A DNA stretch of 64,000 nt, taken from contig JANYHM010000008.1 in the NCBI GenBank assembly GCA_025359065.1, forward strand, positions 1-64,000, read 5' to 3'. Origin of the DNA: Synechococcales cyanobacterium GL140_1_metabinner_5_sub (GTDB taxonomy: Bacteria; Cyanobacteriota; Cyanobacteriia; Cyanobacteriales; Chamaesiphonaceae). Under the pieces are notes generated by a model. The model worked only from the letters and a program-made list of their open reading frames with translations, did no database searches and had not been told where the DNA came from. The position numbers and the translations under genes are program-made. Position 1 is the stretch's first letter. Each line of letters begins with the position of its first letter. Shown here piece after piece: positions 41,343-56,856 of this stretch.

Positions 41343-42515
41343 ATGAGCAAACCCAACCCCATTTCATACCCAGGATTCAATAACCCCATGTCTGGCAACG
41401 ACCCAATGTTCGATGAAATTGTCCCCAGCAGCGTCGCCAGAATTAAGGTGATCGGCGTAGGCGGCGGCGGTAGCAATGCAATCAACCGCATGATCGCCAG
41501 TGATATTACGGGCATTGAGTTTTGGACAATGAACACCGATGCTCAGTCACTCTCTAACAATGGTGCCAATCGGCGGCTACAACTCGGCCAAAAGCTCACC
41601 AGAGGGCTAGGTGCAGGCGGCAACCCGGCGATCGGCCAAAAAGCCGCTGAAGAATCGCGGGAAGAAATCGCCGCCGCTATAGAAGGCGCTGATTTAGTCT
41701 TTATCACCGCTGGTATGGGTGGCGGCACCGGCACTGGGGCTGCTCCGATCGTCGCTGAAATCGCCAAGGAGATGGGTATTCTCACAGTCGGGGTAGTTAC
41801 TAAGCCTTTTACATTTGAAGGCCGTCGCCGCACTAATCAAGCCGATGAAGGCATCGCTGCGCTTCAAAGTCGGGTTGATACCTTAATTGGTATACCCAAC
41901 GACAACTTGTTGAAGGTGATCTCTGAGCAGACCCCTATGCAAGATGCCTTTCGCTTTGCTGATGATGTGCTGCGATCGGGTGTCCAAGGCATTTCTGACA
42001 TCATTATGATTCCGGGACTTGTTAATGTTGACTTCGCCGATGTGCGGGCTGTAATGGCCGATGCCGGTTCTGCCATGATGGGCACTGGTACTGGTTCGGG
42101 CAAAACCCGCGCCGAAGATGCTGCCAAAATGGCGATCGAGTCACCGCTGCTAGAATCTTCGATCGAAGGTGCCCGAGGGGTAGTTTTTAACATCACGGGC
42201 GGTGTAGATCTGAGTTTGCACGATGTAAATAAAGCTGCCGAAGTGATCTACGCTGCCGTAGACCCCAACGCCAACATTATTTTTGGTGCGGTGCTAGATG
42301 AACGGATGCAGGGTGAAGTGCATATTACAGTGATTGCCACTGGCTTCACTGGCGAATCTCAAGCTCCACCTCCATCTCTGAACAAAGCGGCTCCTATGTC
42401 TTTACCGAAGCGCTCTGCCTCCCCTAGTTCGCTGCCAGTACAGGAGTCTAAAGGCACTCAAAAAGGCGGATTAGATATTCCAGAGTTTCTCCAAACTCGT
42501 CAGCCTAAAAAGTAA
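41343..42515 (+). CDS. ftsZ: Cell division GTPase FtsZ
   Basis: A 390-residue tubulin-like protein that forms the Z ring. Motifs: [16 protein letters not shown], the tubulin signature [14 protein letters not shown], the T7 loop with [11 protein letters not shown], and the C-terminal short conserved peptide region [14 protein letters not shown] that binds partners such as FtsA-less tethers (ZipN/SepF in cyanobacteria). Start ATG 41343 gives the usual short N-terminal tail; a TTG 11 codons upstream is in frame but less likely. The 195-bp spacer after ftsQ could hold a separate promoter. Confidence 0.96.
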
Positions 42516-42657: not shown

Positions 42658-42729
42658 CTCCCCGAGCAAGATTCGAACTTGCGACCGATCGGTTAACAGC
42701 CGATTGCTCTACCACTGAGCTATCGAGGA
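42658..42729 (-). tRNA. tRNA-Asn (anticodon GTT)
   Basis: A 72-base cloverleaf on the minus strand: acceptor TCCTCGA/TCGGGGA, D arm GCTC-AGTGGTA-GAGC, anticodon loop CTGTTAA (GTT) on a 5-bp stem ATCGG/CCGAT, and T arm GCAAG-TTCGAAT-CTTGC. The discriminator is G. CCA is not encoded. Its 3' end faces ftsZ, and the terminator 42598-42637 lies just behind it. Confidence 0.95.
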
Positions 42730-43059
42730 TTGGGTTTACTGAGTTTAGGCCAGTTTTCCCATTATAACCATGCCTATGAGTTATTGGCAAGGGTTTGCTC
42801 TATATTTCTTTCGGAAAACTTGATCCACACCTTAAACGCTGTAGGTAGCGTAGTAAGCTAGTACGCACGCTAGATTTCAGATGAGCTGACGATCATAAAT
42901 CATAAATCACATATTGCAACTAGAACGCTTGACCTAATACTAGATATGGAGTTTTAACGGCTTGTCAATCCCCACATATCGGTGATTTTTAAATGCTAAT
43001 AATTCAAAGATTTTCCTTGAATTCGGAATACAATATGACTCCCTGATAAATGGCTGCAC
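42730..43059. other. Spacer of 330 bp between tRNA-Asn and the CyRepA1-type gene
   Basis: It should contain the tRNA promoter and the promoter of the large gene. An imperfect inverted repeat TAGCGT...ACGCTA lies at about 42846-42870, and a short direct repeat (ATAAATCATAAATCA) near 42895-42910. I see no regular iterons like those at plasmid replication origins and no copy of the tRNA 3' end. Confidence 0.4.
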
Positions 43060-46000
43060 ATGGAACTATCTACCCTAGACCCTCTGCACTATGCTGAACT
43101 AGTAAAAGACAGCGGAATTGCACCTGGTTTAGCCAGCTTGAATTTTCGATCGATCACTGGTGAAACTTGTTACGACTACTTATTTATATCCCCGGAGTTG
43201 CCCAGAAATAATGCTGGACAGGTAACTCCGGGCTGGTTGCGTCGGTACACCAACTGCTTAGAAGGAGGCTGGTGGTGTGCGGGGTTAGATCCATTAGCCG
43301 CTTGGCAGCCGATGGAATGGGGAACTTTCAAGCCTAACAAACCTAAACGCAGCAAAGAAAATAAACGGATCAAGTATGAGCATCCACCTCAAATAGCCAC
43401 CAAGCTGTTTTGTTTGCGGGTAGATGGTGCAACGTGGCAGAAAGTAGCTCAGCGCTATAAACAGAATTTGCCTAAGGGCATTAGTGCCGATACCGTTGAG
43501 GCTGCTGGATTTTGGCAGTGGGTGATTGAACACAAGCTGCCGATCGTGATTTGTGAGGGTGCAAAAAAGACCGCTGCACTGCTTTCCCAGGGATACGTGG
43601 CTATTGGGCTACCAGGAATTAACAGCGGTTATCGGGTATCTAAAGACCTGGCTGGAAATACTATTGATCGGCAGCTCACTGCCGAGCTAGCAGTTTTTGC
43701 TGAGGTCAAGCGCGATATCTTTATCTGCTTTGATTACGAAGTTAAGCCCAAAACCCTAGATGCAGTAAACCGCGCGATCGCCCATTTAGGGGAAGTTTGC
43801 CAAGCTCAGCAGTGTTCAGTAAAAGTAATTCGTCTCACTGGCCCCGAAAAAGGCGTAGATGATTTCTTGGTGGCTCAAGGTCTTGCTCAGTTCGAGAAAC
43901 TGGCGGCAGCAGCGCTAGATCTAGAGACCGATTTGGCTCGAACTCATCCTCACCATCGTCTGACCTATCCGGTGGCTGTCACTCTGCACCAACGCTATCT
44001 ACAGCGCCTAGACTTTCCAACAACTGGGATTGCTGGGGTCAAATCGGCAAAAGGCACCGGTAAAACCACTGCATTGATTCCATTAATCGAAGCAGCCCGC
44101 GCCGAAAATCGGCCAGTGTTGCTGTTGACTCACCGTATTCAACTGGGAAGATTCCTCTGTGAGCGAATTGGGGTGAACTGGATCAACTCCAGCTTAGATT
44201 CTGGTAATAATTCAGCGGCCAGCTTGGGCCTCTGTTTAGACTCTCTCTGGAAACTCAACCCCGAGCATTGGTTGGGTGGAATTGTGATTTTGGATGAGGT
44301 AGAGCAGTCTCTCTGGCATTTGCTGAATAGCTCGACTTGTAAGAGCAAACGGTTAGTGATTCTCAAAACCTTCCAACGCCTGATTTCTCAGGTGGTGGCC
44401 TCTGGTGGCTTGATAATTGGCCAAGATGCCGATTTGTCAGATATTTCGATCGATTACCTGGTAAAACTAGCTGGCTGCGAAATCGAGCCTTGGCTAGCGG
44501 TCAACGAGTGGCAGCCAGAAACTGGCTGGGAAGTGAATTTCTTTGATACTCCTAACCCCACGGCTTTAATTAGCCAGTTGGAGCAAGACCTGTTGGCTGG
44601 CCACAAATGCTATGTGAGCACCGATAGCCGATCGGGTCGCTATGGCTCGGATACGCTGGATCAATATATTCGCAATCAGCTTCAGCATTTAGAAAACCAA
44701 TATACCAAAACTTTGGTAATCTGTAGCCAGACGACCAATACTCCTGATCACCCGGCAGTGGACTTCGCTTCTCAGATCAATGATCGAGCTACTGAGTATG
44801 ATGCCGTGTTCGTGACTCCCACACTGGGTACCGGGGTGAGTATTGATGTAGACCACTTCGATCGGGTTTATGGTTTGTTTCAGGGGGTAATTCCAGACCC
44901 AGAGGTACGGCAGGCACTGGCTCGGGTGCGGGCAAATGTCCCTCGCTATTTATGGTGTACCAAGCGTGGTGTAGGCATGTTGGGCAGCGGCAGCAACAAT
45001 TACCGCACATTGGCTTTTTGGTATCAGGAAAACTACAAAGAAAGCTATGCCTTGATGTGCCCCAGCCAAGCTTTTGATGTAGATGTGCCATTGATCTATG
45101 ATCCTGTCCACTTACGAGCTTGGTCAAAGTTTGCGGCGCGAATTAATGCTTCAATTACTCTCTATCGAGAGTCGATTCGGGCTGGGTTGCTATTGGAAGG
45201 CCATCAAATTATCAATATCGATGGTGATAGTGAAAAAGAAAAGCTGGTAGAGCTACGCCAAGCGCTGGTGCTGGCGGCTAAGACCGATAAGGATCAGGCT
45301 AAGAAGCTGATGGGCGAAATTTTTGCGCTTCAGCAACAGGTGGGTGCAAAGACCAAGAAGCACCAGTTGATCAAAGATCAAACTAAGAATATTCAGCAGC
45401 AGGCCAAGCAACAGGCCGCGAATGCGGTGGCCAATGCGCCAGATATTCGATCGGATCAGTATCAGTTCTTGGCGGGCAAGCGTTTCTTGACAGATGCTGA
45501 ACGTCAGCAGGTCAATAAATATATGCTGAAGCAGCGTTATGGCGTGAAAGTCACCGCAGACCTTAAACTCAAAGATGAGCAGGGCTATTATGGCCAGTTA
45601 ATGACTCATTTTTATCTGAGCTATCATTTGCAGTTTGCTAGTAACGATAAACTCTCCCAGGCTTTTGATAGCAACAATGCCGAGCAGCAGATTTTCTTGC
45701 CAGATATTAATAACTACACTTTAAAGATTCAAGGTTTGGTAGCTTTGGGTATTCCAGAGTTGCTGAATCTCGATCGACAGTTTACATTGCAAGATCCTGA
45801 TTTGGCGGCTTTACAGCGGATGGCTTGTCTCTGTAGCCAGCATATTAAGCGGGCGATCGGTCTCAATTTATCTTTGGATGGCAAGTCGGCTAAACAAGAT
45901 AGTTCGATCGTGATTTTTGGCAAGTTTTTGGGTCTGCTAGGACTGAAGCTGATATCTATTAAGACCAGTGGCAAAGGTAAGAAGAACAAGATCTATCAAA

Positions 46001-46146
46001 TCGATCCTGAGACTTGGAATGATGGCCGTAATAAAATCTTTGCGGTCTGGAAACGCAATGCGGTCATCGATTCCAATATTTTACAAGATATTCCCGCAAC
46101 ACCAATCCTTCGTGATATCAACAAAGTCCCGGCTGGAGTCAACTAA
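43060..46146 (+). CDS. CyRepA1-type plasmid replication protein (TOPRIM primase-helicase)
   Basis: A 1028-residue protein with the make-up of cyanobacterial plasmid Rep proteins of the CyRepA1 group. Residues about 150-290 are a DUF3854/TOPRIM-like domain (LPIVICEGAKKTAALLSQGY, GLPGINSGY, DIFICFDYEVKPKT). From about 325 there is a P-loop helicase: Walker A GVKSAKGTGKTTALIPL, Walker B GIVILDEVEQSLWHL, and a distal motif TPTLGTGVSIDVDHFDRVYG. The C-terminal 300 residues are helical and basic. Such proteins start replication of cyanobacterial plasmids; here the gene sits among chromosomal housekeeping genes, so it may mark an integrated plasmid or element. No partition gene or integrase is seen beside it. 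Confidence 0.8.
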   Translation: MELSTLDPLHYAELVKDSGIAPGLASLNFRSITGETCYDYLFISPELPRNNAGQVTPGWLRRYTNCLEGGWWCAGLDPLAAWQPMEWGTFKPNKPKRSKENKRIKYEHPPQIATKLFCLRVDGATWQKVAQRYKQNLPKGISADTVEAAGFWQWVIEHKLPIVICEGAKKTAALLSQGYVAIGLPGINSGYRVSKDLAGNTIDRQLTAELAVFAEVKRDIFICFDYEVKPKTLDAVNRAIAHLGEVCQAQQCSVKVIRLTGPEKGVDDFLVAQGLAQFEKLAAAALDLETDLARTHPHHRLTYPVAVTLHQRYLQRLDFPTTGIAGVKSAKGTGKTTALIPLIEAARAENRPVLLLTHRIQLGRFLCERIGVNWINSSLDSGNNSAASLGLCLDSLWKLNPEHWLGGIVILDEVEQSLWHLLNSSTCKSKRLVILKTFQRLISQVVASGGLIIGQDADLSDISIDYLVKLAGCEIEPWLAVNEWQPETGWEVNFFDTPNPTALISQLEQDLLAGHKCYVSTDSRSGRYGSDTLDQYIRNQLQHLENQYTKTLVICSQTTNTPDHPAVDFASQINDRATEYDAVFVTPTLGTGVSIDVDHFDRVYGLFQGVIPDPEVRQALARVRANVPRYLWCTKRGVGMLGSGSNNYRTLAFWYQENYKESYALMCPSQAFDVDVPLIYDPVHLRAWSKFAARINASITLYRESIRAGLLLEGHQIINIDGDSEKEKLVELRQALVLAAKTDKDQAKKLMGEIFALQQQVGAKTKKHQLIKDQTKNIQQQAKQQAANAVANAPDIRSDQYQFLAGKRFLTDAERQQVNKYMLKQRYGVKVTADLKLKDEQGYYGQLMTHFYLSYHLQFASNDKLSQAFDSNNAEQQIFLPDINNYTLKIQGLVALGIPELLNLDRQFTLQDPDLAALQRMACLCSQHIKRAIGLNLSLDGKSAKQDSSIVIFGKFLGLLGLKLISIKTSGKGKKNKIYQIDPETWNDGRNKIFAVWKRNAVIDSNILQDIPATPILRDINKVPAGVN

Positions 46147-46158
46147 ATCACCCGCCGC

Positions 46159-46217
46159 AGATAACCTTTGCAGCGCAGCCAATCAACTTTCGGCGGTTGT
46201 GTGCATTGGAGTTATGC
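46159..46217 (-). repeat. Imperfect stem-loop, attC-like
   Basis: Nested pairing over about 60 bases: ATAAC/GTTAT (46161-46165 with 46211-46215), CCAAT/ATTGG (46179-46183 with 46205-46209) and CAAC/GTTG (46184-46187 with 46196-46199). On the minus strand this reads GCATAAC ... GTTATCT, directly downstream of the methyltransferase-like gene, the place and outline of an integron attC site. The arms are unequal (13 bases against 1 between outer and middle stem), which is not canonical. Confidence 0.3.
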
Positions 46218-46229
46218 CGCGATCACTTA

Positions 46230-46901
46230 TCAATTAATTTTCAACATTTGGTTCCCACCTTTTTGAAACTCATAAGCAACAGTTTCAACTTCTGCACTAT
46301 AACCTTTTTCAGATAAATCTTTCATCACCAGTTCAAGGTATGGAGATATCTCACCATTAAGTTTAAGTAATGGAAAAATTCTTATCTCCGAGGCAACTCG
46401 CAAGAGTTCATGAATTGAAGCTATATGAAAATCAAGGGGTAATTGCTCTGAATACAAGAAGAGTAAATGAGAACATACACACAGGTCAAACTGACTATCA
46501 GAAAAATTCAAGCTTGGCAAAGATTGATATAAATATCGTTCGGAAACTTTTCCTGCTCCATAATCTAATAAAAACTTCTCCATTGCGCCTAGACGAGCTT
46601 TGCCAAGTTCATCAGCATCTTGAAAGTTCTTCCAAATATAGTTGTGAGAATTTTGTTTTACTTGTGAAATGACTTGCTCATAAGTTGCTCGAACACGCTG
46701 CTCGATCTGTTCACCAGAAAATTGATAAACCGGATCAATAGATACGACAGAGTGTCCTAACTTAGTCATTTCGGCATTGAAGCTAGCTGGCCCATCACCG
46801 CAACCAAGCATTTTCGTGCTTAAATCTGTTTCTGACAGACTAAACATTGACTTGTATTCTTCCAGTGTTCTGCCCCAAGGGACAACTTCATCAAGCTTCA
46901 T
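46230..46901 (-). CDS. SAM-dependent methyltransferase-like protein
   Basis: A 223-residue protein with a class I methyltransferase outline: motif I MLGCGDGPASFNAEMTKLGH, the acidic end of strand 2 in VVSIDPVYQF, motif IV region FDLCVCSHLLFLY, and a late beta strand SEIRIFPLLKLNGE. The first 25 residues (LDEVVPWGRTLEEYKSMFSL) are typical of a subgroup whose substrate is not known. It lies convergent with the CyRepA1-type gene, 83 bp apart, with an attC-like fold in between. Codon use is more AT-rich than the neighbours, which hints at transfer. Confidence 0.7.
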   Translation of the reverse strand: MKLDEVVPWGRTLEEYKSMFSLSETDLSTKMLGCGDGPASFNAEMTKLGHSVVSIDPVYQFSGEQIEQRVRATYEQVISQVKQNSHNYIWKNFQDADELGKARLGAMEKFLLDYGAGKVSERYLYQSLPSLNFSDSQFDLCVCSHLLFLYSEQLPLDFHIASIHELLRVASEIRIFPLLKLNGEISPYLELVMKDLSEKGYSAEVETVAYEFQKGGNQMLKIN

Positions 46902-47158
46902 TTAAATTAACCTTAGATATCGCCTTCACAAAATTTCGAGCGGCATAGCGGTCATTATACAGAATTTTTCTGCATATCCACCCAAATCTGGGCAGATAAG
47001 TAGCAACGCTCAATTAAATATAAGATGAATCAACCTGAAACTTTTTCCTAGACTAAAGTCATTTTGCTTTAACCGGATGGTTATGCTGCTTCTTGTGGCT
47101 AACTCTCTCCTGCATCGATCGACCTTGCGCAGAGCCGTTTAGTAGTTGTTGGACTTAT

Positions 47159-48388
47159 TCATTGGGGCGGTGAACTATGACAAAAGCCACTATCCCACCA
47201 GATATTGTTGGAGCCAGAGGATTTACCATAGCTAGGATTAATGCCATATTTACTGCCTTCAGGATGTCCTAATACAGTAGAGACTGATTTATACATCTTA
47301 TTCACATTGAAACAGCGTGGATCGCAGTGCCCGTCAGGCAATCCATGATCCAGAGCAAAGTGAGTAGTAGTTTCAGGAAACTTACCAGCCAAGAAAGTTG
47401 CACGTAAATATTGCATTACCACATTGTCATACTGCACCTGAGTATATGGTGGATTCGAGAAAGGAATCAAATTACCGTTGCTGCCTGTACAACTATTTTG
47501 GTTGCCCCGATCGCTTTTAGCACCTACCTGTAAAATCTCGATCGGCACAGAGTTATTCACTCGCTGATTGCGAGTATTAAAATAATTTCTCGCCGCGCCA
47601 CAAGCTGCCCCTAAATCACTAGAAAGAGCGATCGACTTATTGCCGCCCTCATAAATATTGCAAATTGTTTCAGCGGTCCAAGTCCCCGCAGTAAAAATCT
47701 TACTGCTACTTTCTAGCTGAGCAACCGCCTTTTTTTGCTCTTTGGCAATTTCATCTGGCTGTAAACTCAAATTACCCAAAGCCCGATCTAATCCTTGTCT
47801 GCGCCCAGCAGAATTAGTCGATCGCCAAATCCGCCGAAACAGATCCTCTCGCCGACTTTGGTTTAATACATCTGAGGCTTTTTCAAATTCGGTAGTAGTA
47901 GGGCGACGCAGCTCATAAAAGTTGGGGCGTGCCACAATTGCACTGCTGCTCCGAGGTGCATAGATACTCACCCCTAGACCCAATGGGCCTCTACCTTCAA
48001 ATCGCTCTTTCTCTAGGCGAGCCGGGGGCAAAATTACGGCAGTGTCATGAAGAATGAAGCGCGGATTGCCGGGAGGAGAGAAGGGCGAAATGGTGCTGAT
48101 GTTTTTCGATCGTAAAAAGCTTTCTAGGCGAGTACGTTCATTGGGAGCCAATGCTCGACCAGCGTAATTGGTGCTACCTTGGGCGATTAACGTTTCTGCT
48201 GTTGAGGTGACTTCTGAAAAATTCGCTGGTTCCAAGTCGGATGAAATTAATGGTTCAGCGATCGGCGCGATCTTGGCTGATGTTAATGGCGGTGGGTCTA
48301 AGGGGCTGTAAGCCAGAGACTTTTGGGTGATGGCGACAGTGGCTGTGAAAATGACAAGGAACAGAAGAGCAATGGTACGAAAAAACAT
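47159..48388 (-). CDS. Secreted protein of unknown function, amidase-like motifs
   Basis: A 409-residue protein with a signal peptide (MFFRTIALLFLVIFTATVAI). ATG 48388 is chosen because it starts the signal peptide; a longer frame to 48475 lacks a ribosome site. Two stretches suggest an enzyme: PRFILHDTAVILPP (residues about 100-113), like the His-containing strand of amidase-type hydrolases, and ALDHGLPDGHCDPRCFN near residue 350, rich in His, Cys and Asp. Six or more cysteines occur in the second half, consistent with disulfides outside the cytosol. I do not recognise the family. It is divergent from aroB. Confidence 0.6.
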   Translation of the reverse strand: MFFRTIALLFLVIFTATVAITQKSLAYSPLDPPPLTSAKIAPIAEPLISSDLEPANFSEVTSTAETLIAQGSTNYAGRALAPNERTRLESFLRSKNISTISPFSPPGNPRFILHDTAVILPPARLEKERFEGRGPLGLGVSIYAPRSSSAIVARPNFYELRRPTTTEFEKASDVLNQSRREDLFRRIWRSTNSAGRRQGLDRALGNLSLQPDEIAKEQKKAVAQLESSSKIFTAGTWTAETICNIYEGGNKSIALSSDLGAACGAARNYFNTRNQRVNNSVPIEILQVGAKSDRGNQNSCTGSNGNLIPFSNPPYTQVQYDNVVMQYLRATFLAGKFPETTTHFALDHGLPDGHCDPRCFNVNKMYKSVSTVLGHPEGSKYGINPSYGKSSGSNNIWWDSGFCHSSPPQ

Positions 48389-48599
48389 AATTGGGTTTCT
48401 AGCTGGTAGGTCTGGTCTGGAGATGCTCAAAATAAGTATTATTTGAATATAATTCCAGAAAAGTCGATCAATCACAATAGCAGGGTCAACAACCTGGAAT
48501 CGAATAAGCCAGGGACGCTCCCTACATTAGCTTGTTCCTGAAGATCCTTTGGCATGGCCTATCGATTACTATGTAAACCTAGTCAATTTTATTAGCACC

Positions 48600-49691
48600 A
48601 TGGAAGTCACGATTCCCGTCGAGTTACCCACCAGCCGTTACAGCGTGGTCATTCAGCCTCAAGGATTACAGCATTTGGGCGAAAAATGCCGCCAGCTCAA
48701 GCTGGGCGAAAAAATCATCGTGGTTTCTAACCCCATCATTTTTGAGCATTACGGCACCACAGTTGTCGAATCTCTGTCGGCAGAGGGATTCCAGGTTAGT
48801 ACCTGCATCTTGCCCGCTGGTGAACAATATAAAAACTTTGACTCTCTGCAAAAAATCTATGACGCGGCGATCGATCAACAGCTAGAAAGATCTTCGACCC
48901 TGTTAGCTTTAGGCGGTGGTGTGATTGGCGATATGACAGGCTTCGCCGCTTCTTCTTGGCTGCGCGGTATCAACTTTATTCAAGTACCCACCAGCCTATT
49001 GGCCATGGTAGATGCTGCGATCGGCGGCAAAACTGGCATCAATCATCCACGGGGCAAAAACCTGATTGGAGCCTTCTATCAACCCGGGCTGGTGATGATC
49101 GATCCAGAGGTGTTACAGACTTTGCCCACGCGAGAATTCCGGGCGGGGATGGCTGAGGTAATTAAGTATGGCATTATTTGGGATGCTGAGCTGTTGGCCA
49201 TGTTAGAAAAAGCCGAGCAGCTAGATACGCTCGCTGGACTAGACATGCAGCTAGTCAGCGAAATTTTGCGCCGTTCGGCGCAAGCAAAAGTTGACGTAGT
49301 CAGCCAAGATGAAAAGGAAGCCGGTCTGAGAGCGATTTTGAACTACGGTCATACCATTGGTCATGCTGTAGAAAGCCTCACTGGTTACAAAGTAGTCAAC
49401 CATGGCGAAGCGGTGGCGATCGGGATGGTCGCAGCGGGCAAGCTAGCGGTGGCTGCCCAGATGTGGAGTCAGGCCGATACCGATCGACAAGATGCCGTAA
49501 TTCAAAAAACCGGGTTGCCCACGAAGCTCCCGACAGGCATGGATATTGATCAAATTGTGGCCGCCCTCTTTTTAGACAAAAAAGTACAGGCTGGCCGAGT
49601 GCGCTTTGTGATTCCTACTAAAATTGGTCACGCCACTGTGACTGACGCGATCGCCAATACTTTAGTGGCTGATATCTTAACCGGCATGTAG
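48600..49691 (+). CDS. aroB: 3-dehydroquinate synthase
   Basis: Second enzyme of the shikimate pathway, using NAD and Zn. A 363-residue protein starting [20 protein letters not shown]. Motifs: NAD loop [40 protein letters not shown], and the zinc ligands in [12 protein letters not shown] (Glu), [12 protein letters not shown] (His) and [10 protein letters not shown] (His). Length is normal. ATG 48600 matches the family; a TTG 17 codons upstream is in frame but unlikely. The CHASE2 kinase gene follows 33 bp later. Confidence 0.95.
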
Positions 49692-49724
49692 CTATTCTAT
49701 TCATCCATCAGTAACCAAACCACC

Positions 49725-52700
49725 GTGAAGCAACCAACTGCGGGCAAACTACCAAAATTTCTGGCTAGCACCATTAAATCTAGCTGGCGATGGTTGCCCG
49801 GATCGATCGCGGCGGGAGTGGTAATTTTGTTGTTTGAGTTGGGAGCATGGCAGCAGTTTGAGTTTATTGCTTACCGTCAACTGTTCCGAATGCGCGGGGA
49901 GCAAGCTTTAGATTCCCGGATCGTAACTATCTCGATTGATGATGACAGCGTCGATCGGCTAGGAGCTATTCCTTGGCCACACCAGCAGTATGTAGACCTA
50001 TTGAAAAAGCTACAGCCGTCTAAACCAGCGGTTATAGCTATCACTTTCCCGATTAGTGAGAAGAGTGAAGTAGATACAGTTTTGACCGAAGAAATAAAAA
50101 AATCAACGGTGGTTTTAGCCGATGATTGGCAAACCAGAGATTTACCAATGTTGTCTAACGCTAAACTGCGACAGGCAGCGACACAAGTTGGTCATGTGCG
50201 TCAGATGGAAGACAGTGATGGTTTAGTGCGATCAGTACAGCTTTTTCAGCAAAATGATGTGGCTTTTGGCTTAGCAGTAGTCCGAGCCAGTAAACTTACT
50301 ACACCTGGTCCTGATTATCCCCAGGATCTGTGGGTAAACTGGCGACAGGCTGCACCCAGAATTCCTAACTATTCTTTTGCTCAAGTTCTAGATCCTAAAT
50401 TTAATGCCACCAAACTAAGTGGCAAAATCTTGATTGTGGGGATCACGGCGCAGGGAATTGATCGGATGGGGACACCCTTCGATCGCTATAGTAGTGCCAA
50501 TGGCATTCATCTCCAAGCCACCATTATTGATAATTTGCTGCGTCATCGGGGGTTGCAAACTTTACCCAAGTGGCTATTGCTATTGTCGTTAGTAACAATT
50601 AGCCATCTTTTAAGCTGGCGATTGAGCTACTACGGCCAAGGTCGTCGTCTGTTAGTAGTTGTCTTAGCAACAGGTGGTTGGCTGCTGTTGGCCGTGGGCA
50701 GTTTGTATCTGAATTTATTGCTGTGGGTAGCCACGCCTCTAATTTTGATTGGAATGACTGGGGTGGGAGTGGCTTTTAGTGAAAAAATGTATATTGATGC
50801 CTCGATCGATCGGCAGATTCTTCAGCTCTGGCGCGCTCACCAAGTAGATCTAATTTCGCAGCAAAACTCACCGGCTATTTCGCCAGATTTACCATCGTTT
50901 AGTAAGGTGGCGAAGTTAGCTTCCTTGGCCGAAAACTTTGGCCGTGCCCAGTCTGCCCGCGCAGCGATTACCCACAGTTTATCTCTAGGACTTTTAGCAG
51001 TAGAACTGGACGGTCAAATTTGGTTCTGTAACTCGGTTGCTGCCCGATTGGTACAAACAAGCGTAGGAGAAAACATCGATCGGTGCTTGGTGCCTCAATG
51101 GCTCAGTCGCGGTGAATGGGATGCCAATGTGCATCAGATTCAAAGTGGTAACTATGTGGCGATCAAAGAAGTTCAACAAGGTGAACAGTTTTTTAGCCTG
51201 CGCATGGAGCCATTACTCGATTGGCGGGTGCTACAAAGTGACTTTGGCACTGAATCTCAGGAGCCAACCGAGAACACCCCCATTTCTGGAATATTATTGG
51301 TAGTCGAAGATGTGACTTCTAGTAAACACATGCAGTCACTTATTTTGGATCTAGAAATTCAGCGTCGCCAAGAATTAACTAAGCAAAATATCGCTCTTGA
51401 TAAAGCCCGTCAGTTAGCAGAAGCCGCTGCCAGTATTAAGAGTGCTTTTTTAGCTAATATGAGCCATGAAATTCGCACGCCGATGAATGCAGTGGTAGGG
51501 TTAACTAATTTATTGCTAGATACACCCTTAAATAGTGACCAAGAAGATTTTGTATCTATGATTAAAGTCAGTGCCGATCATCTGCTGAAAATTATTAATG
51601 AGATCTTAGATTTTTCTAAGTTAGAATCTGGCGAAATGCAGTTAGAATCAATCAAGTTTGATCTCAAGGAACTGATTGAACAAGTTGTTGAAATCTTGGC
51701 GAATCGTGCCCACAGCAAAGAGTTGAACCTGAGCTATTGGATCGAAACTCACACCCCACGTTTGGTTAAGGGTGATCCGACTCGGTTGCAACAGGTATTA
51801 ACTAACCTTATTGGCAATGCCATTAAGTTTACTAATCAGGGTGGGGTGACAGTAGATGTGCAGCCAATATTTTGTGGCACGACTAACACCACTATTAGAA
51901 TTACAGTGACAGATACCGGAATTGGTATCTCACCCGAAAACCAACAAAAGCTATTTCAGTCTTTCTCTCAGGCAGATGCTTCCACTACTCGCCAATATGG
52001 GGGGACTGGTTTGGGATTGGCCATTTGTCAGCGGTTAATAGACTTAATGGGAGGAAAGATTGGAGTGGATAGTCAGCCCGGGGCAGGCTCAGCGTTTTGG
52101 ATTGAAGTAGATCTGCTGACCTTATCGGTGCCGGTAAGTATGTCGATTCCTGCTCTACGGGGAGTATCGCTATCAATTTTTGATGATTGGCCACATCGGT
52201 CAGCGGCACTCACCAAGGTAGTAGAAGAATGGGGAATGCGGGTGATTGATGATAGCGAAAGACCGCAATTGGCTTTGGTGGACTGGAGTATGGGCACAAA
52301 TCAAGAGATTGTTGATTTATTAGTACAGCGAAAGGTGCCCACCATTGTCATGACTACTTTCGATCGCTATGAGTCGGCTCATGCCAAGCTAGGTGAAAAA
52401 GTAAGCTATATTTTTAAGCCAATTAAGTCCAGTCGTTTAGCAACTCTTTGCCAGGAAATGGTGCTACCGGTTGATCAACGTGAGGTTGACAAAAGCAGTG
52501 CTGCCGCTACTTCTACTCCCTACCCAATATCCATTAAGGAAAATCGTCAAATTCTGTTGGCCGAAGATAATTTGATTAATCAAAAGGTGGCGCTGCGTCA
52601 GTTAGCGAAGCTGGGGTATCAGGTAGATGTGGCTGGGAATGGTCAAGAAGTTCTAGAAAAACTGAACCAGAAGCACTATGACATGATTTTAATGGATTGT

Positions 52701-52943
52701 CATATGCCGGTTCTGGATGGCTACGAAACTACAATCTTGATTCGTCGCTTGCCCGATAAACGTCGGAGTACAGTGATTGTGGCACTCACGGCCAGCGCGA
52801 TGAAAGCCGATTTAGAGCAGGCGATCGCCTCCGGCATGAATGATTTCTTGTCTAAACCGGTGAAAATTGAGCAGTTGCAGCAGACGATCGAGGGCTGGCT
52901 CAGTGAAGATTTCAAAGTTAAGAGCAAGCTGCTGGATGCTTAA
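49725..52943 (+). CDS. CHASE2-domain hybrid histidine kinase
   Basis: A 1072-residue membrane sensor, GTG start. One N-terminal membrane segment, a periplasmic CHASE2 domain (about 60-280, IVTISIDDDSVDRLGAIPWP), three more membrane segments (about 282-355), a PAS-like region (about 420-530, SLGLLAVELDGQIWFCNSVA), a coiled coil, HisKA ([19 protein letters not shown], about 580), HATPase ([13 protein letters not shown]), a degenerate receiver (about 800-915) and a full C-terminal receiver (MILMDCHMPVLDGYE). CHASE2 ligands are unknown. Its stop abuts the ispH stop with no spacer. Confidence 0.92.
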   Translation: MKQPTAGKLPKFLASTIKSSWRWLPGSIAAGVVILLFELGAWQQFEFIAYRQLFRMRGEQALDSRIVTISIDDDSVDRLGAIPWPHQQYVDLLKKLQPSKPAVIAITFPISEKSEVDTVLTEEIKKSTVVLADDWQTRDLPMLSNAKLRQAATQVGHVRQMEDSDGLVRSVQLFQQNDVAFGLAVVRASKLTTPGPDYPQDLWVNWRQAAPRIPNYSFAQVLDPKFNATKLSGKILIVGITAQGIDRMGTPFDRYSSANGIHLQATIIDNLLRHRGLQTLPKWLLLLSLVTISHLLSWRLSYYGQGRRLLVVVLATGGWLLLAVGSLYLNLLLWVATPLILIGMTGVGVAFSEKMYIDASIDRQILQLWRAHQVDLISQQNSPAISPDLPSFSKVAKLASLAENFGRAQSARAAITHSLSLGLLAVELDGQIWFCNSVAARLVQTSVGENIDRCLVPQWLSRGEWDANVHQIQSGNYVAIKEVQQGEQFFSLRMEPLLDWRVLQSDFGTESQEPTENTPISGILLVVEDVTSSKHMQSLILDLEIQRRQELTKQNIALDKARQLAEAAASIKSAFLANMSHEIRTPMNAVVGLTNLLLDTPLNSDQEDFVSMIKVSADHLLKIINEILDFSKLESGEMQLESIKFDLKELIEQVVEILANRAHSKELNLSYWIETHTPRLVKGDPTRLQQVLTNLIGNAIKFTNQGGVTVDVQPIFCGTTNTTIRITVTDTGIGISPENQQKLFQSFSQADASTTRQYGGTGLGLAICQRLIDLMGGKIGVDSQPGAGSAFWIEVDLLTLSVPVSMSIPALRGVSLSIFDDWPHRSAALTKVVEEWGMRVIDDSERPQLALVDWSMGTNQEIVDLLVQRKVPTIVMTTFDRYESAHAKLGEKVSYIFKPIKSSRLATLCQEMVLPVDQREVDKSSAAATSTPYPISIKENRQILLAEDNLINQKVALRQLAKLGYQVDVAGNGQEVLEKLNQKHYDMILMDCHMPVLDGYETTILIRRLPDKRRSTVIVALTASAMKADLEQAIASGMNDFLSKPVKIEQLQQTIEGWLSEDFKVKSKLLDA

Positions 52944-54137
52944 CTAGCCCTTAGCAGCGAAAATCTTTTCGATGACTTCTTCTACTACTTTGTCAGGAGT
53001 AGAGGCTCCCGAGGTGATACCGACGGTAATTTGGCCAGCCGGAAGCCAGTTGTCACTAATTATTAGATCTTGTTTGAGGGGTTTGTGTTCTAAGCGGTAG
53101 TCAGCCAAGATGCGATCGGCGCTGTCGATATGGTAGGAGGGAATGGTGCGATCGATCGAGATTTCTTGGAGGTGGGTGGTGTTAGAGGAGTTGAAGCCCC
53201 CAATGACCATCATCAAGTCAATCTTTTCTTTGACAAGCTGGAACATGGCATCTTGGCGCTCTTGGGTGGCATCACAGATGGTGTTGAAGCTGAGGAAGTG
53301 ATCGTTAATTTCTACTGGGTTGTATTTGCGCAGCATGGTGAGCTGAAAGAGTTTGCCGATTTCTTCGGTTTCAGTTTTCAGCATGGTGGTTTGGTTGGCG
53401 ATGCCGACGCGCTCTAAGTCCATATTAGGGTCAAAGCCTGCCGAGCAGGCATTACTGAATTTAGTAAGAAATTCTTGTTTGTCGCCGCCGTTCAAAATAT
53501 AATCGCAAACATATTTGGCTTCTGCCATGTTCAGGACTACCAAATATTTATTGGCAAACGAAATTGTAGCTACGGTTTCTTCGTGTTTGTATTGGCCATG
53601 GACGATCGAAGTATGGTCATTCTTTTTGTGCTTTTCGACGGTATTCCAGACTTTAGAAACCCAGGGACAGGTAGTGTCCACAATGGTGCAGCCCTTGTCA
53701 TTCAGTAACTGCATTTCTTGCACGCTGGCTCCAAATGCCGGTAATATCACTACATCTTTTTCCCTAACCACGCCAAAGTTTTTTTCGCCCTGCTGAACTT
53801 CAATAAAGCCCACGTTCATTTCTTTTAAGCGCTGGTTCACTGAAGGGTTATGGATAATTTCGTTAGTAATCCAGATATCTTGGCTGGGGAAGTGCTGGCG
53901 GGTTTCGTAGGCCATGGCGACGGCGCGCTCTACGCCCCAACAAAAGCCGAAAGATTCGGCGAGCTTAATGGTGACGTTGCCTTGGGTGAGGGTGTAATTG
54001 TTGGCGCGAATTTGTTGAATCAGGTCGCTCTGGTACTCCGATTCTAGCGCCACATTGACTTCTGCTTGGTGGCCAAAGCCTTTGCGATGGTAGTTTTCGG
54101 AGTGGTTGAGCGATCGCTTAAATGCTTTGGTATCCAT
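52944..54137 (-). CDS. ispH: 4-hydroxy-3-methylbut-2-enyl diphosphate reductase
   Basis: Last step of the MEP isoprenoid pathway, giving IPP and DMAPP; needed for chlorophyll, carotenoids and quinones. A 397-residue enzyme of the long cyanobacterial/plant type. The iron-sulfur cysteines lie in [30 protein letters not shown] and [15 protein letters not shown]. The substrate motif is [14 protein letters not shown]. The first 50 residues form the extension found in this group. It converges exactly on the hybrid-kinase gene, the two stop codons being adjacent. Confidence 0.95.
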
Positions 54138-54234
54138 GTTTTTTGGCTATGGTGGTGGCTGCTGACGCAGGCAGGAGGTGGTGCTTACCTTTTACTTTAG
54201 CAGAAGGCGATCGAAATCTGTATCGGCAGGCTCT

Positions 54235-54936
54235 TCAAGTGTAAACAACACAGCTAAAAATACCCACCAAACTGCCTTGCTTCGTTAGTCCTACAGCTAA
54301 TCTGGGCAGAACGCAGCCTCCATTATATAAATCAATGCCTCTGGCATGTTCCTTGTCATAATCGGTATCTACAGCAACATATACCGCATTATGTAACCCC
54401 CGGCTCTCAAACCATGCGGCCAGACTTTTCCAAGATTTAATTGCCCGATCACACTCATCTTCCATCCCCTGGCTATCAACACATGCCAGCCACCAATCTT
54501 TAGGCTGCTCTGCTAGTGATGCAATTGTAATTTTGGCATCAGGATAAATAGCTCCACCAAAAGCCGATCGAATTACCTCCTCTGTTACCAAGGCAGAAAT
54601 CTCTTGTCCTTCGTTAGCAACCACATAAAATGGTGAAAACCCATGTTCGCCCTCATCGCCAAGGTTGATGAATTGACCCTCCATAATAAAGGCCGCTTCT
54701 TGAGCAAGCTGCTGACACAGCTCTATTTCGGCTGGATGATGCTGGTGCTGGAGTGTTTCTCCGGCTCGACCGATCGACCCGCAGGAATAAACTATAGTTT
54801 TGCGAGAAATCAGATTCCAAACCCACTCATTTTCTGGGTCACGGTCTTCCATGCCATAAGTTTCAGTGCATTCTACCAGTATTGCTAATTTCTCTGAATC
54901 TAATATGCAATCTTGAATCATCATCATTTTGACCAA
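54235..54936 (-). CDS. Protein of unknown function, acidic, cytosolic
   Basis: A 233-residue acidic protein without signal peptide or membrane segment. Several ATGs stand at the start (codons 1, 4, 5 and 6: MVKMMMIQ), so the exact start is open. Recognisable stretches: LISRKTIVYSCGSIGRAGET, GDEGEHGFSPFYVVANEGQE, ESRGLHNAVYVAVDTDYDKE. No catalytic or binding motif is known to me. It is divergent from the Ser/Thr kinase gene. Confidence 0.6.
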   Translation of the reverse strand: MVKMMMIQDCILDSEKLAILVECTETYGMEDRDPENEWVWNLISRKTIVYSCGSIGRAGETLQHQHHPAEIELCQQLAQEAAFIMEGQFINLGDEGEHGFSPFYVVANEGQEISALVTEEVIRSAFGGAIYPDAKITIASLAEQPKDWWLACVDSQGMEDECDRAIKSWKSLAAWFESRGLHNAVYVAVDTDYDKEHARGIDLYNGGCVLPRLAVGLTKQGSLVGIFSCVVYT

Positions 54937-55092
54937 CTTAGAGTCATCATTTTAGCCCATAGATTTTCTAAAAATTCGCGACATAATAGATCTTAAACTT
55001 TGTGGAATTTTGCAGCGGTCAAACTGGCCAATGGTAGAATCTATCACAGTAACAATTTCTCAGAGAAAAGCCCATAATCCGCCAGCAAACCC

Positions 55093-56856
55093 ATGATCTG
55101 TTGTCTAAACCCTAACTGCCAAAATCCTCCTCGTCCAGATGAGATAAAGTTTTGCGTGGAGTGCGGCACTGAGATGGCGATTTTAGAAAACCGTTACCGG
55201 CCATTGAAATCGATCGGGCGCGGTGGTTTTGGCAAGACTTATTTGGCCGCAGATATCAAGAAGTTTGGGGAGCAATGTGTAATCAAACAGTTTGCGCCTT
55301 CTTCTGGAGATGATAGCGAGACAGAGAAGAATCGCTTTCAGGACGAAGCTAAGCAGCTTCAACGACTGGGAGAACACCCTCAAATTCCGGCTCTTTTGGC
55401 TTTTTTTACAGAGCGCAGCTACTTGTATTTTGTCCAGCAATACGTCGCAGGCGAAAATTTGGCGGAAGAAGTAGCTGAGCACGGTTTATTTGATGAAGCC
55501 AAAGTGCGCAGCTTTCTGCAAGACTTACTAGGAATTTTGCAAGTTGTCCATCAGCAGGGCATTATCCACCGTGATATCAAGCCCTACAATATTATGCGAC
55601 GGCAATCTGACCAGAAGCTGGTGCTGATTGACTTTGGTATCTCGAAGCAATTGGAAGTCAATGCTCCTACCGGCACTAGCATTGGATCTTTGGGTTACTC
55701 GCCTCTAGAGCAAGTCTGGGGTGGCAAGGCTTATCCAGCCAGCGATCTATATAGCTTAGGTGTGACAGCTTTTTACTTGATGAGTGGCATTCCGCCTCAC
55801 AAAATTTTGGTAGATTTGCTAGAAGAAACTTCTCCAGAACAAGCTCATAACTGGGTGCAGCAGTGGCGCAGATATGTAAAAAGACCAGTGAGTAATGAGC
55901 TGGGGCGGGTGTTAGATGGACTGCTGCATATTGACCACAAACAGCGCTATCAATCTGCTACCGAGGTATTGCGCGCGTTGGAGGGCAAACAAGTACCGAA
56001 TAATCTGCCGACTCAACGGGTAGCAGCAAGTAACAATTATTCCCCGCCGCAGCAAGGAAATATTTTCAAGCTGCTGTTAGTTAGTGGTTTAGGGTTAATT
56101 GGCTCATTGTTATTGCTGCTGTTGACCATCAATATTTTCAAACCATCAAACGTTAATATCAGTCAAGACTTAGGCGATCGACCAGAGAATGCTGTTGCCT
56201 ACTTAGAGAGGGGTAAAAAGCAGAGTGCTGCCGACAAGTTCAATGAAGCTTTGGCCGACTTCAACAAATCGATTCAGCTTCAACCTACTATTGCCGGCAG
56301 CTATCTTGAGCGTGGACAAGTGCGCAGTAGATTAGAAGATAAACAGGGGGCACTAGCCGATTTCAATAAGGCATTAGAACTCCAGCCTAATTGGGCTGAA
56401 GCCTATTATCAGCGGGCTGGTGTGCAAGATGAGTTGGGTGATACTCAGCAGGCGATCGCCGATTTAAATAAATCCCTGAGCCTAGATAAAAACAGTTCGT
56501 TAGCTTTTATCCATCGGGGAAATTTGCATCTCAAACAAAAAAATCAGCTTCAGGCTCTCCAAGATTTTAATGCTGGTATCAAAATAGATCCTCGCAGCTC
56601 TTATGGCTACATGTCTCGGGCTAGTTTGTTTACTAGCACTAATAAAAAAGTACAGGCCATTGCTGACTATGATCAAGTGCTAAAGCTAGAACCCGAAGAT
56701 GCCTATTATCATTATCAGCGGGGACTTTTGCATCAAGATTTAAACAACAAAGCCAAAGCTAAAGCCGATTTTCAGGCAACGATCAAATTCGCTAAAAAAA
56801 CAGGCACAGAGAAAGATTATGCTGATGTTGCTGCCAAGCTACGACAGGTTCAATAG
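55093..56856 (+). CDS. Ser/Thr protein kinase with zinc ribbon, membrane helix and TPR repeats
   Basis: A 587-residue cyanobacterial Hanks-type kinase. Residues 1-30 are a zinc ribbon (CCLNPNCQNPPRPDEIKFCV, then ECGTEM). The kinase domain (about 33-300) has the Gly loop SIGRGGFGKTYLA, the VAIK-type Lys in CVIKQF, the catalytic loop IIHRDIKPYNIMRR, and DFG as LIDFGIS. A membrane helix follows (about 330-350, LLLVSGLGLIGSLLLLLL), then about six TPR units (AYLERGKKQSAADKFNEALA and repeats). The TPRs would lie on the other side of the membrane from the kinase. The ligand and substrates are unknown. Confidence 0.9.
   Translation: MICCLNPNCQNPPRPDEIKFCVECGTEMAILENRYRPLKSIGRGGFGKTYLAADIKKFGEQCVIKQFAPSSGDDSETEKNRFQDEAKQLQRLGEHPQIPALLAFFTERSYLYFVQQYVAGENLAEEVAEHGLFDEAKVRSFLQDLLGILQVVHQQGIIHRDIKPYNIMRRQSDQKLVLIDFGISKQLEVNAPTGTSIGSLGYSPLEQVWGGKAYPASDLYSLGVTAFYLMSGIPPHKILVDLLEETSPEQAHNWVQQWRRYVKRPVSNELGRVLDGLLHIDHKQRYQSATEVLRALEGKQVPNNLPTQRVAASNNYSPPQQGNIFKLLLVSGLGLIGSLLLLLLTINIFKPSNVNISQDLGDRPENAVAYLERGKKQSAADKFNEALADFNKSIQLQPTIAGSYLERGQVRSRLEDKQGALADFNKALELQPNWAEAYYQRAGVQDELGDTQQAIADLNKSLSLDKNSSLAFIHRGNLHLKQKNQLQALQDFNAGIKIDPRSSYGYMSRASLFTSTNKKVQAIADYDQVLKLEPEDAYYHYQRGLLHQDLNNKAKAKADFQATIKFAKKTGTEKDYADVAAKLRQVQ

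Follow-up and report, generated by a model that had tools for sequence, protein, structure and literature searches.

Background

The CyRepA1 family (NCBIfam NF042913) comprises plasmid replication proteins (Reps) of cyanobacteria, among them Slr7037 of plasmid pSYSA from Synechocystis 6803. Chromosomal CyRepA homologues have been reported in 80 of 145 genomes, with a function that needs validation (PMC10899382). In this study, a CyRepA1-type gene that appears to reside on the chromosome is described from a 64,000-nucleotide stretch of DNA (the window; contig JANYHM010000008.1, positions 1 to 64,000) of Synechococcales cyanobacterium GL140_1_metabinner_5_sub.

Two further systems are relevant to this locus. 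Replication independent of DnaA is known in Nostoc 7120, Synechocystis 6803, and Synechococcus 7002, and dnaA is missing from Geminocystis and C. aponinum (PMC7198777), as well as from UCYN-A and the spheroid bodies (PMC6315102). An integrated plasmid origin rescued a delta-dnaA strain of S. elongatus, and what starts chromosome replication where cyanobacteria have no DnaA or do not depend on it is a question still under study (PMC7198777). The second system is the regulator NrdR, whose box has the consensus acaCwAtATaTwGtg and occurs in two copies an integral number of helical turns apart (PMC4009431), with spacers of 14-17 or 24-27 bp (PMC12051234).

The CyRepA1 gene and its protein

The gene is an intact open reading frame (ORF) flanked on one side by ftsZ, which ends at 42515, and tRNA-Asn(gtt) (42658-42729, - strand), and on the other by aroB, which starts at about 48549; the neighbouring gene names were assigned by eye. 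The tRNA is the only one in the 64-kb window, and an Rfam scan gave nothing else above the gathering score. The protein scores 373 bits against the NF042913 profile (cut-off 200). A first-pass annotation, made from the sequence alone, had placed a full-length TOPRIM/helicase Rep with both Walker motifs apparently intact at this position, and both statements hold. The gene and the domains of its product are as follows.

43060 to 46146, + strand: resident chromosomal CyRepA1-family gene of clade A, 1028 residues (ORF, profiles, tree, and substitution rates)
43510 to 43881, + strand: DUF3854/TOPRIM-like domain, residues 151-274 (Pfam, 158.5 bits; EGxKK and FDxE residues kept)
44023 to 45951, + strand: CyRepA1 helicase region (NF042913 match; origin-binding-protein helicases in PDB, E ~1e-7)
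44053 to 44067, + strand: Walker A, GTGKT, residues 332-336 (kept in clades A and B and in nine plasmid Reps)
44293 to 44304, + strand: Walker B/DExx, DEVE, residues 412-415 (alignment with plasmid Reps)

In the alignment with nine plasmid Reps, the helicase landmarks GTGKT, DEVEQ, DADLS, GTGVSID, and QALARVR (motif VI-like) are all intact, as are the TOPRIM-type EGxKK and the acidic residues. By its domains, a DUF3854/TOPRIM-like module joined to a helicase with intact Walker and motif VI residues, the protein belongs to CyRepA1. By its replicon it does not fit the plasmid family, since its 65.5-kb contig carries metG, ftsZ, and aroB. A profile of 20 family members matched viral origin-binding proteins of PDB over the helicase region, and the best PHROG match is annotated 'replication'. 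An AlphaFold2 model from five sequences reached a predicted local distance difference test score (pLDDT) of 38 and was not used.

Chromosomal residence and phylogeny

The gene is found in all eleven genomes of the window's family (f1), where the ten other copies are 57-96% identical and two of them are split into two pieces at contig ends. In an order-wide set of 291 genomes, each at least 90% complete, copies of at least 50% identity occur in 61 genomes belonging to families f1, f12, f21, f22, f32, and f33; extra copies are undercounted, since two candidates per genome were scored in the order-wide searches. Related copies across these six families share 51-62% identity, and in f33 the gene is carried by 38 of 39 genomes, often on multi-megabase contigs. 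A draw of 386 genomes from across the phylum gave 81 matches, of which 79 belong to this order and two, at 41% identity, do not. A search for plasmids with the nearest Rep, which the first-pass annotation had proposed, gave a best plasmid Rep of only 37.6% identity among 447 matching records.

To place these copies, a quick IQ-TREE phylogeny (LG+G4) was built from 78 of 83 rows, with supports from the Shimodaira-Hasegawa-like approximate likelihood ratio test (SH-aLRT) as the sole support measure; the rows dropped were L033 (a duplicate of L004), L054, L085, L091, and L092 (22-25% identical). Clade A comprises 41 rows including the window gene (SH-aLRT 100, stem 0.74) and no plasmid row, and f1 is monophyletic inside it with a support of 100. 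Clade B, with 27 rows and a support of 100, is likewise plasmid-free and is drawn from families f8, f2, f20, f29, f30, f15, f5, f10, f26, f7, and f24. The nine plasmid Reps fall outside both clades. At a threshold of at least 54% identity to the clade B query, clade B copies are present in 123 of the 291 genomes, none of which is among the 61 with clade A; one or the other is thus carried by 184 genomes and neither by 107. This mutual exclusion follows the families, and individual genomes do not count as independent evidence for it. The same division is seen in the type of ribonucleotide reductase (RNR): among the genomes tested, PF02867 occurs in 12 of 13 with clade B and in 0 of 13 with clade A.

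The ratio of nonsynonymous to synonymous substitution rates (dN/dS) between the window gene and its counterpart in the genus mate (locus L033 of Synechococcales cyanobacterium bin59) is 0.033, next to 0.015 for ftsZ, 0.046 for metG, 0.063 for lptC, and 0.081 for ftsQ, which indicates strong purifying selection. The GC content at third codon positions (GC3) of the Rep gene (0.491) is host-like, being close to that of metG (0.513), aroB (0.544), and lptC (0.476). The window's own genome contains two further, distant CyRepA1/DUF3854-type genes, L054 (contig C109) and L055 (contig C35), on short contigs, which are possibly plasmid-borne.

The first-pass annotation took the locus for an integrated plasmid, a remnant of one, or an integrative element that replicates. 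Such an origin would agree with the closest named family being that of a plasmid Rep, with an AT-rich neighbouring gene (46230-46901), and with a gene order directly 3' of Rep that differs from that of the genus mate, where truA-rplM-rpoA stands in place of aroB. Against it, the clade is plasmid-free across six families, the gene is universal in f1 and under purifying selection, its composition is that of the host, and relatives carry it among different chromosomal neighbours. Profile searches of the interval ORFs (Rep, a methyltransferase-like ORF, and one unmatched ORF) gave no integrase or partition family, in agreement with the annotation, and no repeat of the tRNA region of 11 bp or more, as expected of an att site, occurs downstream (42761-56000). 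The explanation was therefore rejected as highly improbable; what stands of the annotation is an intact CyRepA1-type protein on a chromosome, and what falls is the mobile element around it.

Comparison of the interval among close relatives, suggested by the annotation as a search for an empty site, showed that the ftsZ-tRNA-Asn-Rep order is also present in the genus mate and only there. In the remaining relatives Rep has other chromosomal neighbours and no adjoining tRNA, and no neighbour genes are conserved across genera beyond close relatives. The annotation had also held that occurrence of the gene at the same site in many distant genomes would make it a resident one, and in substance this is what is seen: the gene is widespread, whereas its site is shared only with the genus mate. 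Overall, the window gene is almost certainly a resident chromosomal gene and not a current element. Since a full-length and intact CyRepA1-type protein is encoded on the chromosome, the gene probably goes back, at some depth, to a plasmid Rep.

The methyltransferase-like ORF (46230-46901, - strand) matches Methyltransf_11 below the cut-off (18.6 versus 21.2 bits). It is more AT-rich than Rep, as the annotation noted, and with a GC3 of 0.295 it does look foreign by composition. No such gene is found at the equivalent position in the genus mate, and it is probably a recent arrival beside a rearrangement breakpoint, unrelated to Rep.

Sites upstream of the Rep gene

Between tRNA-Asn and the start codon, sequences of the two f1 genera can be aligned over the 110-150 nt nearest to Rep, and their flanks cannot. 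The elements recognised in this region of the window, and one within the gene, are listed below; strand is given where it applies.

42937 to 42952: NrdR-box-like site 1, ATACTAGATATGGAGT (pair scan, p=0.005)
42969 to 42984: NrdR-box-like site 2, TCCCCACATATCGGTG, 32 bp from site 1 (spacer of 16 bp); a weak box that agrees with the consensus at 8 of 16 positions
42964 to 42977: GTCAATCCCCACAT, overlapping site 2; the sole match of its pattern in the window's own genome
42836 to 42851: upstream palindrome ACGCTGTAGGTAGCGT, a possible distal NrdR-like box (9 of 9 f1 loci have an upstream site with no more than two mismatches)
42867 to 42882: half-palindrome ACGCTAGATTTCAGAT, a possible partner of the distal box, 31 bp from it (putative pairing)
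43029 to 43034, + strand: putative -10 element TACAAT (consensus match; TAnAAT is aligned in most f1 relatives)
43993 to 44006: second palindrome copy within the Rep coding sequence, in the window's genome and the genus mate (both genus g1), absent from seven genus g2 genes tested

The loci were scanned for box pairs with the published NrdR consensus and spacing rule at p<0.01. Such pairs occur upstream of 20 of 28 genes in the B set, of 12 of 41 in clade A (4 of 9 in f1 and 8 of 32 in the rest of the clade), and of 5 of 9 nrdA genes from genomes with clade B. The B set includes L032 (f4), which the tree places outside clade B; when L032 is removed, 20 of 27 reach p<0.01 and 21 of 27 reach p<0.05. 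Nine of 14 RNR loci were scored (L166-L174); L175-L179 are fragments, either split or internal, whose starts are uncertain. None of eight plasmid Reps has a pair, L101 being left out since its record starts with too little upstream DNA, nor does any of 68 downstream regions. Among other genes, of which 260 of 324 served as the negative control, 4 of 260 have a pair, and three of these are divergent from a resident Rep (L048, L049, L094) and share its intergenic region.

In the window, the pair at 42937-42952 and 42969-42984 is the top-scoring one in 64 kb, a rank that it shares with a pair overlapping it; two pairs with one box in common score at least 20, versus a mean of 0.15 in shuffled sequences. 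The aligned f1 pair matches 17-21 of 32 positions, when the background has a 95th percentile of 17 and a 99th of 20. The palindrome class CRCTANNNNTAGYG is found exactly upstream of 15 of 41 clade A genes, 11 of 28 in the B set, and 0 of 9 plasmid Reps, with shuffles giving 0.04 and 0.01 loci for the first two groups. The sites of f21, f22, f32, and clade B resemble the consensus in print and have its spacings, and they match the nrdA promoters found in clade B genomes. Judged from these sites, NrdR control of the resident copies as a group seems quite probable, and for the window's own copy it is slightly favoured.

The palindromes may instead be operators or binding sites of another factor, either Rep itself or a different regulator. 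In the window's genome, CGCTRTNGRTAGCG has two copies, both at the Rep gene (42837 and, inside the ORF, 43993), and the same is true of the genus mate; the patterns of CGCTRTNGRTAGCG and GTCAATCCCCACAT were derived from the upstream regions themselves, so that their rarity elsewhere is the informative part. The moderate fit of the f1 boxes to the NrdR consensus would also agree with another factor. The sites of f21, f22, f32, and clade B speak against it by matching the published consensus and spacings as well as the clade B nrdA promoters, and this explanation is considered unlikely. A unique Rep operator in f1 was tried as an idea and is weakened, since the same class of site lies upstream of clade B genes and nrdA. 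No Rep-specific iteron array was found upstream, and the palindrome copy that lies within the Rep ORF may reflect chance or coding constraint.

Further observations concern other resident copies. In f22, a gene divergent from the resident Rep (L048, 10779-11735, + strand; L049, 11562-12461, + strand) shares a strong NrdR-like box pair with it and may be co-regulated. The f12, f21, and f33 resident Reps (e.g. L013, L014, L066) share a conserved CGTGNTANGGTTTTANAT-like element about 50 nt before the start, which may be an extended -10 promoter; this arrangement is unlike that of f1. In the UCYN-A-like pair of genomes, strong conservation is seen over the last 110 nt upstream of Rep. The upstream gaps measure 727 and 681 nt, which is long by the standard of that genome, where 9 of 308 sampled gaps reach 680.

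Loss of dnaA and possible role of the resident Rep

The dnaA profile TIGR00362 is matched in 245 of the 291 order genomes and in none of the eight f1 genomes among them, which include the window's own (99.84% complete). The C-terminal DnaA domain PF08299 scored above its cut-off in 0 of 11 f1 genomes, with three sub-threshold scraps, and was found in both dnaA-bearing relatives included. The resident copy is also kept in reduced clade B genomes without dnaA. Two of these, G250 and G259, are single contigs of 1.44 and 1.49 Mb without the photosystem II reaction centre and are taken for UCYN-A. Four others (G177, G187, G214, and G232; 2.5-3.1 Mb), in which the reaction centre is absent (in G177, a fragment with stops), are taken for diatom spheroid bodies; both assignments are made from genome size and gene loss. 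In a separate case, G143 (f33, 3.8 Mb, one contig) has neither dnaA nor a clade A or B copy, and G258 of the same genus retains clade A.

The overall best explanation, which we hold with moderate confidence, is that the clade A CyRepA1 is domesticated, vertically inherited, and no longer part of a mobile element, and that it takes part in chromosomal DNA synthesis under probable NrdR control. A role in chromosome replication, as initiation or as helicase-primase support, is somewhat favoured for what would be a TOPRIM-primase-like/superfamily 2 helicase protein. In a genome without DnaA, the Rep helicase would open the DNA at one or more chromosomal sites and the TOPRIM module would support priming. 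The dATP-sensing repressor NrdR would probably control Rep transcription via paired operator boxes, as it does for RNR: when dATP is plentiful, NrdR would repress the Rep gene, and when DNA synthesis lowers the deoxynucleoside triphosphates (dNTPs), Rep and RNR would increase together. Because the NrdR logic of RNR is applied to Rep in this proposal, the supply of Rep would follow that of dNTPs. The residence, vertical descent, and selection of the gene, its intact motifs, its box-like sites, and the lack of dnaA in the family are observed, and NrdR binding, Rep activity, and the chromosomal target are what we infer.

Several observations weigh against this explanation. The second box of f1 is weak (6-10 of 16 positions) and the pair reaches p<0.05 in 5 of 9 f1 loci, while the Rep genes of f33 are essentially without boxes. 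A regular-expression search gave no NrdR, although its coverage, some 28% of a single symbiont genome and minor portions of others, makes this uninformative. A clade A or B copy is found in 28 of 46 dnaA-less and 156 of 245 dnaA-bearing genomes (Fisher p 0.74), which shows no correlation with dnaA loss. The notion of a resident Rep present wherever dnaA is lost was rejected, as neither clade occurs in 18 of the 46, including the f14 genomes, G026, and G143, the last giving no CyRepA1 match even at 1e-5. Lastly, no GC-skew switch was seen at the gene in G003 (400 kb around it, 20 samples) or in G250 (20 samples, 28% of the genome), where the skew is irregular, and the skew of the window marks no clear origin at the gene. 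The absence of a skew signal fits the multi-site replication reported for such species and supports nothing by itself.

Since the presence of clades A and B does not track dnaA loss and dnaA-less genomes without them exist, the resident Rep is not a general substitute for DnaA. It is a natural candidate for the initiator where DnaA is absent, and it is doubtful that it replaces DnaA as the sole one. One tentative scheme suggests that resident CyRepA1 is the initiator, or one of them, in DnaA-independent cyanobacteria such as f1 and the UCYN-A-like and diatom-spheroid-like symbionts, that it was domesticated at least twice (A and B, never together), and that NrdR couples initiation to dNTP supply; we regard this combination as unlikely in full.

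A different function, as a helicase-primase that re-primes stalled forks or serves recombination-dependent replication with no part in origin choice, would agree with the TOPRIM and helicase anatomy, with a skew that gives no origin signal, and with the occurrence of the gene in dnaA-bearing and dnaA-less genomes alike, and NrdR control would suit repair equally. However, the family members tested start plasmid replication (PMC9978351) and the helicase resembles origin-binding proteins, and a function confined to restart or repair is held to be the less probable one. The Rep could also act from the chromosome to help or restrain the cell's own plasmids in trans, through copy-number or incompatibility control, as may be thought from the distant CyRepA1-like genes on C109 and C35 and from the trans action of CyRepA1 inferred for pSYSA (PMC9978351). 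This is improbable, given that the gene is kept in G250 and G259, single-contig genomes of 1.4-1.5 Mb where no other CyRepA1 above the cut-off was found, and is under strong purifying selection in f1.

The resident Rep is a concrete initiator candidate that 184 of the 291 order genomes carry, the dnaA-less reduced symbionts that keep it included, and NrdR would be a testable regulatory link between this candidate and dNTP supply. In addition, annotation and plasmid detection can both go astray where chromosomal genes bear the label 'plasmid replication protein, CyRepA1 family'.

Comparison with known systems

The window protein resembles the CyRepA1 family of Slr7037 in its domain order, in all helicase motifs, and in a score above the family cut-off. 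It differs from the plasmid members in being chromosomal and vertically inherited, in a clade separate from the nine plasmid Reps. The clade A rows displayed have FDxE, whereas 9 of 9 plasmid Reps have FDxD, and NrdR-like boxes precede many resident copies but none of the eight plasmid Reps tested.

The chromosomal CyRepA homologues of PMC10899382 represent the same phenomenon as the window gene; the relevant passages of its main text, supplementary table aside, do not deal with orthologous resident clades, dnaA status, or regulation. No literature on resident CyRepA1 clades or their NrdR control was found in a search of sources other than subscription journals and supplementary files.

With the NrdR regulon (RNR genes and topA), the resident copies share paired 16-bp palindromes with spacers of 14-17 or 24-27 bp (PMC12051234, PMC4009431). 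The difference is that the putative target here is a plasmid-type Rep, the non-RNR target reported being topA of P. aeruginosa (PMC4409342). The rescue of the S. elongatus delta-dnaA strain is similar in that a plasmid replicon takes over initiation of the chromosome (PMC7198777); that case is a laboratory suppressor, whereas the window gene is old and resident and any replication origin that belongs to it is putative.

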